Shown: one piece after another, positions 3,794-14,942 of the stretch
Numbering within the stretch: the stretch's first letter is position 1
Layout of the letters: every line of letters starts with the position of its first letter
Origin: a virus
DNA length: 24,771 nucleotides
Direction: 5' to 3' (one strand)
Virus record (IMG/VR): IMGVR_UViG_3300034064_000240
Location: 1 to 24,771 of that record
Position numbers and translations under genes: made by a program
Notes under the pieces: model-generated
What the model saw: only the letters and a program-made list of their open reading frames with translations
Databases searched by the model: none
What the model was told of the DNA's origin: nothing

Positions 3794-4124
3794 CCTTACG
3801 CATAACCCTTTGGAGCCGCCCAGAAACGCCTTTACGGGTTCCAATGACCTCAATGAAGCCCTTGTCAATCAGCGCCTTGTAACGGGCTGTGACGCTGGAA
3901 TAGGGCAGGAATGGCAGTTTGGAAAGTACATCATCTGAGATGCAACCATCTGGCCCATAGGCTGCAATGGTTTCATAGACCAAGGACTCCATCTTTGTGG
4001 TGTCGATTGCCTGTGCTGCCATGTGGGAAGTGGCAGGGTCTTCTTTGCGAGCAAGTTTAAACGGGGCAGTTCCAAAGAACTTTTCGACTGCACCACCAAA
4101 CCAAGATTGATCTAATTTTGTCAT
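3786..4124 (-). CDS. Winged-helix DNA-binding protein
   Basis: I start at ATG 4124 (MTKLDQSWFGGAVEKFFG), which has an ataggagt ribosome site; a longer frame to 4190 covers only leader sequence. The 112 residues contain FKLARKEDPATSHMAAQAID (about 22-41), then a winged helix: helix LVYETIAAYGPDGCISDDVL, recognition region YSSVTARYKALIDKGFI and wing TRKGVSGRLQRVM. This is a domain type found in phage early regions, probably regulating transcription or replication. A palindromic motif overlaps its stop, so feedback control nearby is possible. Target unknown. Confidence 0.75.
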   Translation of the reverse strand: MTKLDQSWFGGAVEKFFGTAPFKLARKEDPATSHMAAQAIDTTKMESLVYETIAAYGPDGCISDDVLSKLPFLPYSSVTARYKALIDKGFIEVIGTRKGVSGRLQRVMRKVG

Positions 4125-11765: not shown

Positions 11766-11787
11766 TGAGAGTTTTTCGATGCTCTCA
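11766..11787 (-). promoter_or_regulatory. Hairpin in leader of the leftward accessory genes
   Basis: TGAGAG (11766-11771) and CTCTCA (11782-11787) are perfectly complementary around a 10-base loop. The hairpin would sit in the mRNA leader about 30 bases before the start at 11735. AT-rich tattat/tatata stretches at 11788-11805 are a likely promoter area on either strand, but no clean -35 box is seen. Confidence 0.35.
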
Positions 11788-11810
11788 CTATATAAGCATA
11801 ATAGAATCAT

Positions 11811-11981
11811 GCCAGTTTTTATACATCGTTGATTTTAAACAAGAAAATCAGCAACATGAAAACCCTAATAGTACTAACCCCTATCTAATATCTCACGATG
11901 TGGAATGTAAATCTAAAATATTCCACATGGTGAAATGATATCGGTTAGGGTTAACCCTGATGGTATGGCGATAATGGTGCT
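11811..11981. other. Non-coding control region, left part, with two inverted repeats
   Basis: There is no credible gene. ATGTGGAAT (11898-11906) and ATTCCACAT (11920-11928) form a perfect 9-base inverted repeat with a 13-base AT-rich centre. AGGGTTAACCCT (11947-11958) is a perfect 12-base palindrome of the TAGGG/CCCTA type seen at 3775 and 6673. The region separates leftward accessory genes from the repeat array and late module. Confidence 0.55.
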
Positions 11982-12108
11982 TAGTTAGCACTCACTATCA
12001 TTATGCAAATCTTGCATAGTTAGTCATCACTCACTTATAAGTTAGCATGTACTCACTAACATCTAAGTTAGCCAGCACTTACTTAGCATTTAGTTAGTGT
12101 GTGCTTAC
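11982..12108. repeat. Five-unit palindromic repeat array (origin or operator candidate)
   Basis: Units begin at 11982, 12017, 12039, 12065 and 12091. Four share the form WAGTTAG, six bases, CTYACT; the first has a two-base centre. AGTTAG and CTYACT are nearly inverted copies of each other, so each unit is an imperfect palindrome suited to a dimeric protein. Spacings are 35, 22, 26 and 26 bases. A perfect 7-base inverted repeat, TATGCAA/TTGCATA, lies at 12002-12018 between units 1 and 2. Iterated sites in an intergenic region suggest a replication origin or a multi-site operator for the late promoter. Confidence 0.7.
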
Positions 12109-12112
12109 AAAC

Positions 12113-12163
12113 ATGGGGGGGAGGGGGTGTGTGTGGTGTGAGAGATTTTGTGGTGCCCCCCAT
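12113..12163. repeat. G-rich tract with distant C-rich complement
   Basis: ATGGGGGG (12113-12120) can pair with CCCCCCAT (12156-12163). Between them lie ggaggggg and a gtgtgtgtggtgtgag purine/GT-rich stretch. The segment follows directly on the repeat array and could be an origin element or a hairpin; only two long G runs exist, so a G-quadruplex is doubtful. Confidence 0.4.
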
Positions 12164-12269
12164 CCACAAGAAAAGCCAATTTAGACTTTTGCCAACAAGC
12201 AAGGGCTGGCTTTAGAAAGGAAGGGATTGGGTGCTACAGACAGGTAGTAGAAAGTAACAGACAATAGTT

Positions 12270-12722
12270 ATTGAACCCGTGTTTTTTCGGGAATCCTTCC
12301 TTGGAAGGGAGCCTCTCGTTTATCTTGGCTACGGGTATATTTGCTTGTCATCACAAATCCGTTCACGCTACATGCCCCGTTCATCTAGGCTCTAGCTCAT
12401 CCCGAGGTAGAGGAGACTACTTGATGACCACATGATTCGCCTGTTTATCCTACTTGGTCGGCTCAACCGCATAGAGGGATGGGTTCTGATCCCCGTGGAG
12501 TGGTTGAACTATATCAGGGTTTACCCCACTTGTCAAACAAAAGAAAGTGAGTTACATTGTTGTTGCCAAGACGCATGGAGATTGACTCTGAGGATTCTCA
12601 GGGTACGCGACAGTCTCCAGCCGTGTTGGTGTGAAGCATTGAAACAGAGTAGATCATGTGTTCCCACTGAACGACATGGCGAAGCTGGCGGCTAGAACTG
12701 TGGTGAAACCGCCCACCAACAA
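12270..12722 (+). ncRNA. Large structured RNA candidate upstream of terminase
   Basis: About 450 bases with no protein-like frame fold into many helices: ATTTG/CAAAT (12339-12343, 12354-12358) with ACGG/CCGT outside; CTCTA-CTC with GAG-TAGAG (12390-12398, 12404-12412); TCAACC/GGTTGA (12463-12468, 12502-12507) enclosing GGGAT/ATCCC; GGAGATTG/CAGTCTCC (12577-12584, 12611-12618) enclosing a 7-pair stem; TGTTGGTG/CACCAACA (12624-12631, 12714-12721) enclosing a 9-pair hairpin (12655-12678) and GGCGG/CCGCC (12687-12691, 12709-12713). The loop GTCATCA (12347-12353) pairs with TGATGAC (12422-12428), a pseudoknot. Size and place recall the large ornate phage RNAs GOLLD and ROOL, but membership is untested. 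Confidence 0.55.
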
Positions 12723-12751
12723 CCTATACTACTTCCATAACTGGGTAAAGT

Positions 12752-13168
12752 ATGAATGTGATTGATGCACTGCCAAACAACCTAAAGAAAAAGGGTCGCC
12801 CCAAGGGTGCTGTGAACAAGAAGTTCACTATGTCTACCTATGCTGAAAGACCTGCGGCTCTCCTGCCAAAGACTGAAGTTCAGCGCATCAAAGAACTTAA
12901 AGACCTCCTGATAAACAGTGCAGGTTCCAATGTCGTTCACAAAGCAATTGAGATTGCCATGAATAACAAACACCCAGCACAAGCGGCTATGCTCAAACTC
13001 TGTATGGATCGAATGCTTCCCGTCAGTCTGTTTGAGAAAGAAGGCAAGCAAAGGAATGCCGTGAACATAACAATCACTGGAATCGGCGGTGTTGAGATTG
13101 AACAATCAAAAATAATTGACGAAGCAGAAGATGTTGGGTATACTATAAAGAATAGTAACCAGGAATAA
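12752..13168 (+). CDS. Putative small terminase subunit
   Basis: The 138-residue protein begins with a basic arm (LKKKGRPKGAVNKK, 11-24), then helices RIKELKDLLINSAGSNVVHK and IAMNNKHPAQAAMLKLCMDR, the motif MLPVSLFEKEG and a beta-rich end (AVNITITGIGG). Basic HTH-like N-terminus, helical centre and position before TerL fit a TerS, which recognises the packaging site and forms a ring. I recall similar proteins before phage large terminases. Direct sequence proof is moderate. It is preceded by the structured RNA and followed at 3 bases by the endonuclease gene. Confidence 0.65.
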   Translation: MNVIDALPNNLKKKGRPKGAVNKKFTMSTYAERPAALLPKTEVQRIKELKDLLINSAGSNVVHKAIEIAMNNKHPAQAAMLKLCMDRMLPVSLFEKEGKQRNAVNITITGIGGVEIEQSKIIDEAEDVGYTIKNSNQE

Positions 13169-13170
13169 AA

Positions 13171-13686
13171 ATGAATCGCATCTTGACTGTTGAAGAACTT
13201 AAAAGCAACATTTCATACGATAAACAAACTGGAATATTTACACGCATAAAAAATCATCCAAAGCGCAAGTATCTTGCTGGATCGGTTACTGGAGTTGCTA
13301 GACCAGATGGATATGTTCAAGTGATGATTGCAGGAAAGATTTTTCTTGCTCATCGTTTGGCTTGGTTGTATGTTTATGGTGAAATGCCGAAGCACTACAT
13401 AGACCATATCAATGGCGTAAAAAACGACAATAGGATTGAGAATTTAAGAGATGTTCGGCAAACAATAAACTTGCAAAATCAAACCAAGGCCAAAAAAAAT
13501 AGAACATCATCAAGCAAGCTAGGCGTAAGTTTTGCCAATCAAGGTAAAAACAAAGATAAGCCGTTTAGATCAAGAATTGTTGTTGACAAAAAAGAAATTT
13601 ACTTAGGGATGTTTTCAGGCGAGAATGAGGCGCATGAGGCATATCTTCAGGCAAAAAGAAAATACCATGAAGGATGCACAATATGA
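13171..13686 (+). CDS. HNH homing-type endonuclease with AP2 domain
   Basis: The 171-residue protein has an N-terminal strand region (YDKQTGIFTRIKN), HRLAWLYVYGEMPKHYIDHI (62-81) and NGVKNDNRIENLRDVR (82-97), the HNH signature with DHINGxxxDNRIENLR, then an AP2-like DNA-binding part (LGVSFAN, FRSRIVVDKKEIYLGMFSGE, NEAHEAYLQAKRKYHEG). Free-standing HNH-AP2 enzymes are mobile genes that cut homologous sites lacking them. It is inserted between terminase genes and its end overlaps the TerL start by 4 bases. AT-richer codons than its neighbours suggest recent arrival. Confidence 0.87.
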   Translation: MNRILTVEELKSNISYDKQTGIFTRIKNHPKRKYLAGSVTGVARPDGYVQVMIAGKIFLAHRLAWLYVYGEMPKHYIDHINGVKNDNRIENLRDVRQTINLQNQTKAKKNRTSSSKLGVSFANQGKNKDKPFRSRIVVDKKEIYLGMFSGENEAHEAYLQAKRKYHEGCTI

Positions 13687-14942
13687 GTGACCTAAACTTT
13701 TCACTCCTTCCTTGGCAACAAATTGTTTTTAGTGATAAAACAAGGTTTAAGGTTGTGGCTGCTGGTCGGCGTTGTGGTAAGTCTAGGTTAGCGGCTACTA
13801 CGCTAATTATTGAAGCATTGCGTTGCCCAGCAGGAAGTGCGGTTCTATATGTTGCGCCTACCAATGGTCAGGCAAGGCAGATCATTTGGGATGTGTTGTT
13901 AGAGATTGGACGGGATGTTATCCAAAACAGTCACATCAACAATATGGACATCACTATGATAAATGGTGCAAAGATTTATGTTCGTGGTGCTGATAGACCA
14001 GATACCCTGCGGGGTGTATCCCTTACCTATGCGGTACTAGACGAGGTTGCGGACATTAAGCCTGAAGCCTGGGAACAGGTGATTCGTGCTTCTTTGTCAG
14101 ACAAAAAGGGCAGAGCCATATTTATCGGCACACCCAAGGGGCGCAACTGGTTCTATGATCTGTTCAAGATGGGCCAAGAGGAGACTGATCCTGATTGGAA
14201 GTCCTGGCACTTCACAACCCAAGATAACCCATTGATAGACCCAACTGAGATTGAGTCTGCCAAGAAGACGCTAAGTTCCGTTGCTTTCAAGCAAGAATAC
14301 TTGGCATCCTTTGACAACGCAGGAAGCGATGTTTTTAAAGAAGATTGGATTAAATATGGTGTGGAACCTGAGTATGGTAGTTACTTCATTGCAATCGACT
14401 TGGCGGGATTTGAAGAAGTGGCTAAACAAGCTGCTAACGCGAAAAAAAGACTAGATGAGAGTGCCATTGCAGTGGTCAAAGTCACTGATGATGGCAAGTG
14501 GTTTGTCAAAGAGATTGACCATGGTCGGTGGGACATTCGGGAAACTGCTGCCAAAATCCTGATGAAGATGCGGGATTACAGGCCAATTTCGGTGGGAATC
14601 GAGCGTGGGGCACTTAAAAACGCTGTTTTGCCCTACCTCAGTGACTTGATGCGGAAAAATAATGTATATTCCCACATAGTTGACCTAACGCATGGCAACA
14701 GGAAAAAGACAGACAGAATCATCTGGAGTCTCCAAGGGCGGTTTGAGCATGGGCGAATTGTGCTGAACTCTGAAGAAGATTGGGACGCATTTACCGATCA
14801 ACTCTTGATGTTTCCTGCCAATGGCGTACATGATGACCTTCCTGATGCTTTGAGTTATATTGACCAATTGGCTGTAACATCTTACTTTGAGAGTGAAGAA
14901 GATGAAGAGTGGGAGCCTGTAGACATCATATCGGGGGTTTAA
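13683..14942 (+). CDS. Large terminase subunit (TerL)
   Basis: The start is ATG 13683 (MSDLNFSLLPWQQIVFSDKT), forming ATGA with the endonuclease stop. The 419 residues contain Walker A AAGRRCGKS (26-34), Walker B YAVLDE (116-121), coupling motif IFIGTPKG (146-153), and an RNase H-like nuclease with FIAIDLAG (235-242), GIERGALKN (305-313) and HDDLPDAL (383-390), supplying Asp239, Glu307 and Asp384/Asp388. TerL pumps DNA into the prohead and cuts it. Length is normal, no intein or frameshift. It joins the portal gene as TAATG. Confidence 0.95.
   Translation: MSDLNFSLLPWQQIVFSDKTRFKVVAAGRRCGKSRLAATTLIIEALRCPAGSAVLYVAPTNGQARQIIWDVLLEIGRDVIQNSHINNMDITMINGAKIYVRGADRPDTLRGVSLTYAVLDEVADIKPEAWEQVIRASLSDKKGRAIFIGTPKGRNWFYDLFKMGQEETDPDWKSWHFTTQDNPLIDPTEIESAKKTLSSVAFKQEYLASFDNAGSDVFKEDWIKYGVEPEYGSYFIAIDLAGFEEVAKQAANAKKRLDESAIAVVKVTDDGKWFVKEIDHGRWDIRETAAKILMKMRDYRPISVGIERGALKNAVLPYLSDLMRKNNVYSHIVDLTHGNRKKTDRIIWSLQGRFEHGRIVLNSEEDWDAFTDQLLMFPANGVHDDLPDALSYIDQLAVTSYFESEEDEEWEPVDIISGV

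Follow-up and report, generated by a model that had tools for sequence, protein, structure and literature searches.

A structured RNA family in an exchangeable slot beside the small terminase gene of uncultivated phages

The 24.8 kb virus contig IMGVR_UViG_3300034064_000240 (24,771 nucleotides, analysed in full and called the window here) possesses at 12272-12503 a member of a new family of structured non-coding RNAs, as judged by comparison of homologous sequences. This core occupies a slot of exchangeable cargo, flanked by a conserved G-run element on one side and the small terminase gene (TerS) on the other. The original prediction described 12270-12722 as a single RNA of about 450 bases. 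Structured RNA is present, and its location beside the small terminase is borne out, but the segment is a composite of two separable elements, probably with opposite read directions, namely the core and a leader cassette at 12568-12728. They are regarded as separable because some relatives have just 15 nt replacing the cassette, and because the cassette is present without the core in other contigs. That the new RNA family, its leftward gene, the cargo slot, a trans-acting role and the separate cassette hold jointly has, in our estimate, an even chance.

The window encodes a large terminase (TerL) at 13674-14942 on the plus strand (phrog_2, E 1.2e-48), besides a recognisable portal, major head protein, tail fibre, endolysin and Sak-like annealing proteins. 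TerS (12752-13168, plus strand) has no PHROG match at E 0.001 and is identified by where it lies and by its homology to the TerS-TerL unit. An HNH endonuclease gene (13171-13686; phrog_99, E 6e-53) separates TerS from TerL; in many relatives TerL directly follows TerS, with no HNH gene between them. The best cultured-phage TerL reaches 47% identity across half its length. One bacterial genome contig (L269), from a beta-proteobacterial MAG, carries a TerL of 85% identity, hence our guess that the hosts of this phage group are beta-proteobacterial. The group itself is uncultivated and appears to be a freshwater one, partly from the name of that MAG.

Searches with TerS and TerL yielded 148 loci, in which constant flanks enclose a variable block B (about 12199-12500) and a block C (12541-12730) that is optional, measuring 15 nt in some relatives and reaching about 490 in others. 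Homologues were collected with a 24-base pattern from block B, which matches at least 120 virus contigs. Alignment A1 comprises 53 distinct core homologues, and a larger set contains 111 distinct sequences. Within the 53 cores 92.8% of cells at the named helices are paired, compared with 82.5% in shuffled and 36-51% in slid controls, which bears out the helices proposed for the segment. Cells changed on both sides number 205 (71 when shuffled), and 21 of 37 core pairs show such changes. It is because compensatory changes exceed the controls that the core is considered a structured RNA.

Covarying helices in alignment A1 are located at 12327-12329/12439-12441 (paired in all 53 sequences, as several different triplets), 12332-12333/12360-12361, 12363-12365/12433-12435, 12384-12385/12415-12416, 12390-12392/12410-12412 and 12476-12479/12490-12493, besides a hairpin at about 12297-12308. 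RNAalifold on the reverse complement independently recovers the same long-range helices. In some alleles a pair of additional tandem hairpins, unrelated in sequence, is present at a single position (columns 61-90). One matched 3' helix lay in the collection pattern, so conservation there is inflated; likewise, invariance within 12453-12476 is partly selected, because the pattern fixed part of this stretch.

A pseudoknot had been predicted between 12347-12353 and 12422-12428. The pairing is perfect in the window and compatible with just one allele group, the window's own (L185, L204); nearly all other homologues have lost it, and it was rejected as a conserved feature. A different candidate may be conserved, and joins 12309-12313 (GAGCC on the plus strand) to 12460-12464 (GGCTC on the plus strand), the latter being in the 7-nt loop of a hairpin that GGT/ACC closes. 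All of its cells are paired in the 53 cores, and one pair covaries from G-C to A-T (51 vs 2 of 53; 93 vs 18 of 111), a compensatory change confined to one clade. RNAalifold proposes a helix that competes with it.

The expected non-coding character holds as well: a stop interrupts the ORF at 12432-12695 in L005 and L049, which are sister alleles, and the lengths of the core occupy all three classes modulo 3, as expected of a sequence with no conserved protein frame. This ORF was rejected as a gene since it is not conserved among alleles. Fold energy alone is insufficient to reveal the structure, because single-sequence z values are weak: -1.54 for the plus strand of 12270-12722 (4 of 100 shuffles equally good), -0.66 for the minus strand, and about zero, with no excess, for the core alone across 18 homologues.

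The read direction of the core is indicated by a sigma-70-type promoter with an extended -10 (TTGACA-17-TATAGT, 11 of 12 consensus positions) on the minus strand at 12508-12536, within the constant stretch flanking the core and pointing leftward into it. The best minus-strand match has 9 or 10 of 12 positions in 91 of 102 distinct homologues and 11 in two more; matches of 10 or 11 occur in 74 of the 102 vs 7 of 500 shuffles. The promoter lies mostly 22-26 nt from the collection pattern. Its main forms are TTTACA-17-TATAGT (45), TTGACA-17-TACATT (24) and TTGAAC-17-TATAGT (12), the hexamers being kept while the spacer sequence varies between clades. A plus-strand scan of the 102 homologues gives no match above 9 of 12. 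RNAalifold energies (minus -26.5, plus -18.5) mildly prefer the minus strand; wobble counts over 111 sequences (18 A-C, 11 G-U) and single-sequence fold energies of the core leave the strand undecided. Because the conserved promoter points into it, the core is, with good confidence, read as a putative minus-strand gene divergent from TerS. It would probably form an RNA gene in its own right, about 230-335 nt long, whose transcript the host sigma-70 polymerase would start at about 12501 and extend leftward. A terminator-like hairpin (AAAGCCA/TGGCTTT, then a T tract) at 12168-12213 on the minus strand is suggestive of the 3' end; a hairpin ending at TTTT is found in 63 of 109 homologues (58%), compared with 24 of 109 when shuffled and 24 on the plus strand. 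Alternative occupants of the slot include minus-strand ORFs (HNH, 153 aa; a basic ORF of 74 aa) behind the same kind of promoter, and the L003 type has a second minus-strand promoter ahead of another folded sequence.

Among the matches listed, the core stands directly ahead of TerS wherever the contig reaches. In loci L150-L268, TerS follows 74 to 641 nt downstream of the pattern in all but six, whose contigs stop 32-159 nt past the pattern start. Such an arrangement would suit cis control of TerS by a leader or a riboswitch-like element on the plus strand, as would a promoter-like site (TTGTCA-17-TACATT, 12530-12558, 9 of 12, weak alone) on the plus strand between core and cassette, directed toward the cassette and TerS. 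We consider cis control unlikely, since the window scan shows no plus-strand promoter-like site ahead of the core, the minus-strand promoter keeps a fixed distance from the core, and TerS stays while the slot holds minus-strand genes or nothing.

All core matches, among those listed, are in virus contigs, with no match in cultured phages, plasmids or genome contigs. A core model gives no hit in a set of 399 bacterial genomes from a single order (without a positive control) and does not match the L003- and L012-type alleles. Core and terminase are exchanged independently: L028 and L031 are 100% identical over the first 450 bases of TerL with cores 58.5% alike, and L185 and L203 have cores 98.7% alike with TerL 71% identical over its first 450 bases. 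The G-run element and TerS are present and the core is absent in L141 and L143 (TerL 93% identical), in the bacterial-genome copy L269 and in L139. L137 has a ParB-like/methyltransferase gene in the slot, by reading of the sequence, and in other relatives the slot is empty or filled by an RNA-like sequence of another kind, an HNH gene or a methyltransferase. Because alleles swap and slot contents differ, the core is taken to be exchangeable cargo rather than a component of the packaging motor. In L003, L008, L012 and L045 the slot holds two further types of folded sequence, which have minus-strand ORFs (z about -2.9 and -2.8 on the plus strand) and no Rfam match in the loci scanned. Small ORFs starting ATGCCTAAAGG or similar are inserted between the RNA core and TerS in L004, L076, L121, L154, L186 and L237.

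Allele swapping is also compatible with neutral recombination at a hotspot. Functionless debris of such recombination would fit the high turnover and the modular inserts, and is nonetheless very improbable, as selection is needed to explain the compensatory changes and the conservation of the promoter hexamers. A further alternative is a role in packaging, either as an RNA of the terminase motor or as a structure that the DNA itself forms at the packaging site. The packaging RNA of phi29 is likewise a compact phage RNA adjoining packaging functions, and the constant association with terminase genes, the conserved G-run and repeats, and core helices almost without wobble pairs, as expected of DNA pairing, agree with such a role. 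It is quite unlikely here: unlike for phi29, there are phages with nearly identical terminases that lack the core RNA, with relatives at 85-93% TerL identity keeping G-run and TerS, so that the motor would not seem to require it, and very different core alleles are swapped beside the same TerL.

The G-run element at 12115-12198 is a candidate packaging or regulatory site. It consists of the G-run GGGGGGGAGGGGG and then a hairpin; base pairing would be possible between the G-run and the loop of this hairpin, which reads GCCCCCC (GCCTCCC in relatives). The element is retained in relatives without the core. Upstream of it, at 11969-12110, are several near-repeats of the type AGTTAGC....ACTCACTA, possibly protein-binding repeats. 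No contig-end pile-up at the G-run, as a sign of a cos site, was seen by eye in the fetched-locus coordinates.

The second element (12568-12728) stands apart from the core: it is a leader cassette on the plus strand and belongs to a modular family, dispersed and with exchangeable inserts. Its scaffold, AAGACGCATGGRGATTG-slot A-CAGTCYCCAGCCGTG-TTGGTG-slot B-CACCAAC, is present in 80 virus contigs, in many of which the fetched stretch shows no TerL of this group. Variable slots lie inside stem A (12571-12584/12611-12624) and stem B (GTTGGTG 12625-12631/CACCAAC 12714-12720); the predicted 8-pair stem 12624-12631/12714-12721 is real and belongs to the cassette. Among the 106 distinct A stems of the fetched loci G-U far exceeds A-C pair by pair (e.g. 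17 to 2 at pair 2, 10 to 1 at pair 7), which fixes the plus strand as the one on which the cassette is read. Some copies begin just past promoter-like sequences and others just past terminator-like T runs; a leader role is therefore likely for only part of the copies. Slot B exceeds the Rfam tRNA gathering score in L273, L275, L279 and L312, some with anticodon arms enlarged or altered by eye, and ARAGORN finds no tRNA gene in the 31 loci scanned. A cassette-type GTTGGTG...CACCAAC hairpin separates TerS and TerL in L141 and L143 (about 3896-3990).

For the core we favour a trans-acting conflict or host-takeover RNA. During infection the folded molecule would engage a host or competing-phage factor, in defence, host takeover or exclusion, and such a role would explain the allele swapping. 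A motor part is made less likely by the lack of the core in close relatives, and debris by the covariation; the swapping of alleles in a slot shared with other contents speaks for cargo. Allelic diversity, and a short RNA gene that would have a promoter to itself, would also suit an antisense regulatory or immunity RNA (P4 CI- or P1 C4-like) with alleles setting incompatibility; this is improbable, since a compact fold is indicated by the many unpaired stretches that never vary and by long-range helices of three base pairs. A bolder reading is possible but tentative: a polymorphic RNA cargo locus, in which folded RNA genes are exchanged beside TerS as weapons or shields, while leader cassettes are mobilised separately, some of their inserts being tRNA mimics in which the anticodon arm is altered. 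Few large folded phage RNAs are known, with functions mostly open, and a family of at least 111 distinct sequences is added here; its strong covariation, defined promoter, allele swapping next to genes that hardly vary and naturally core-less lines make function testable by comparison and deletion.

As anticipated, no Rfam model matches the core. With cmscan at gathering scores the whole window gives no matches, including to GOLLD, ROOL and group I or group II introns, which had been named as models to search. Permissive scans of both strands (11780-12780 and 15 related loci) return only tRNA (RF00005), in slot B of the four fetched loci above, whereas slot B of the window has no tRNA match. 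No terminase-linked structured RNA was found in the literature searched, and the family is provisionally considered previously undescribed, because most subscription papers were outside the reach of that search. By the tests run, the core appears to be neither GOLLD nor ROOL. ROOL, which occurs in phages and prophages, is a large structured RNA with pseudoknots, its function being unknown (PMC12286853); the core is likewise a structured phage RNA, but smaller, without an Rfam match and in a window without an ARAGORN tRNA gene. GOLLD is a structured phage or prophage RNA of unknown function in which one part varies and another is conserved (PMC12286853), features that the core shares. GOLLD exceeds 800 nt and is often located near tRNA islands, with tRNAs that can be embedded in it (PMC12286853), whereas the core has about 230 nt, with a predicted transcript of up to about 335 nt, and lies beside a terminase in a window without tRNA.
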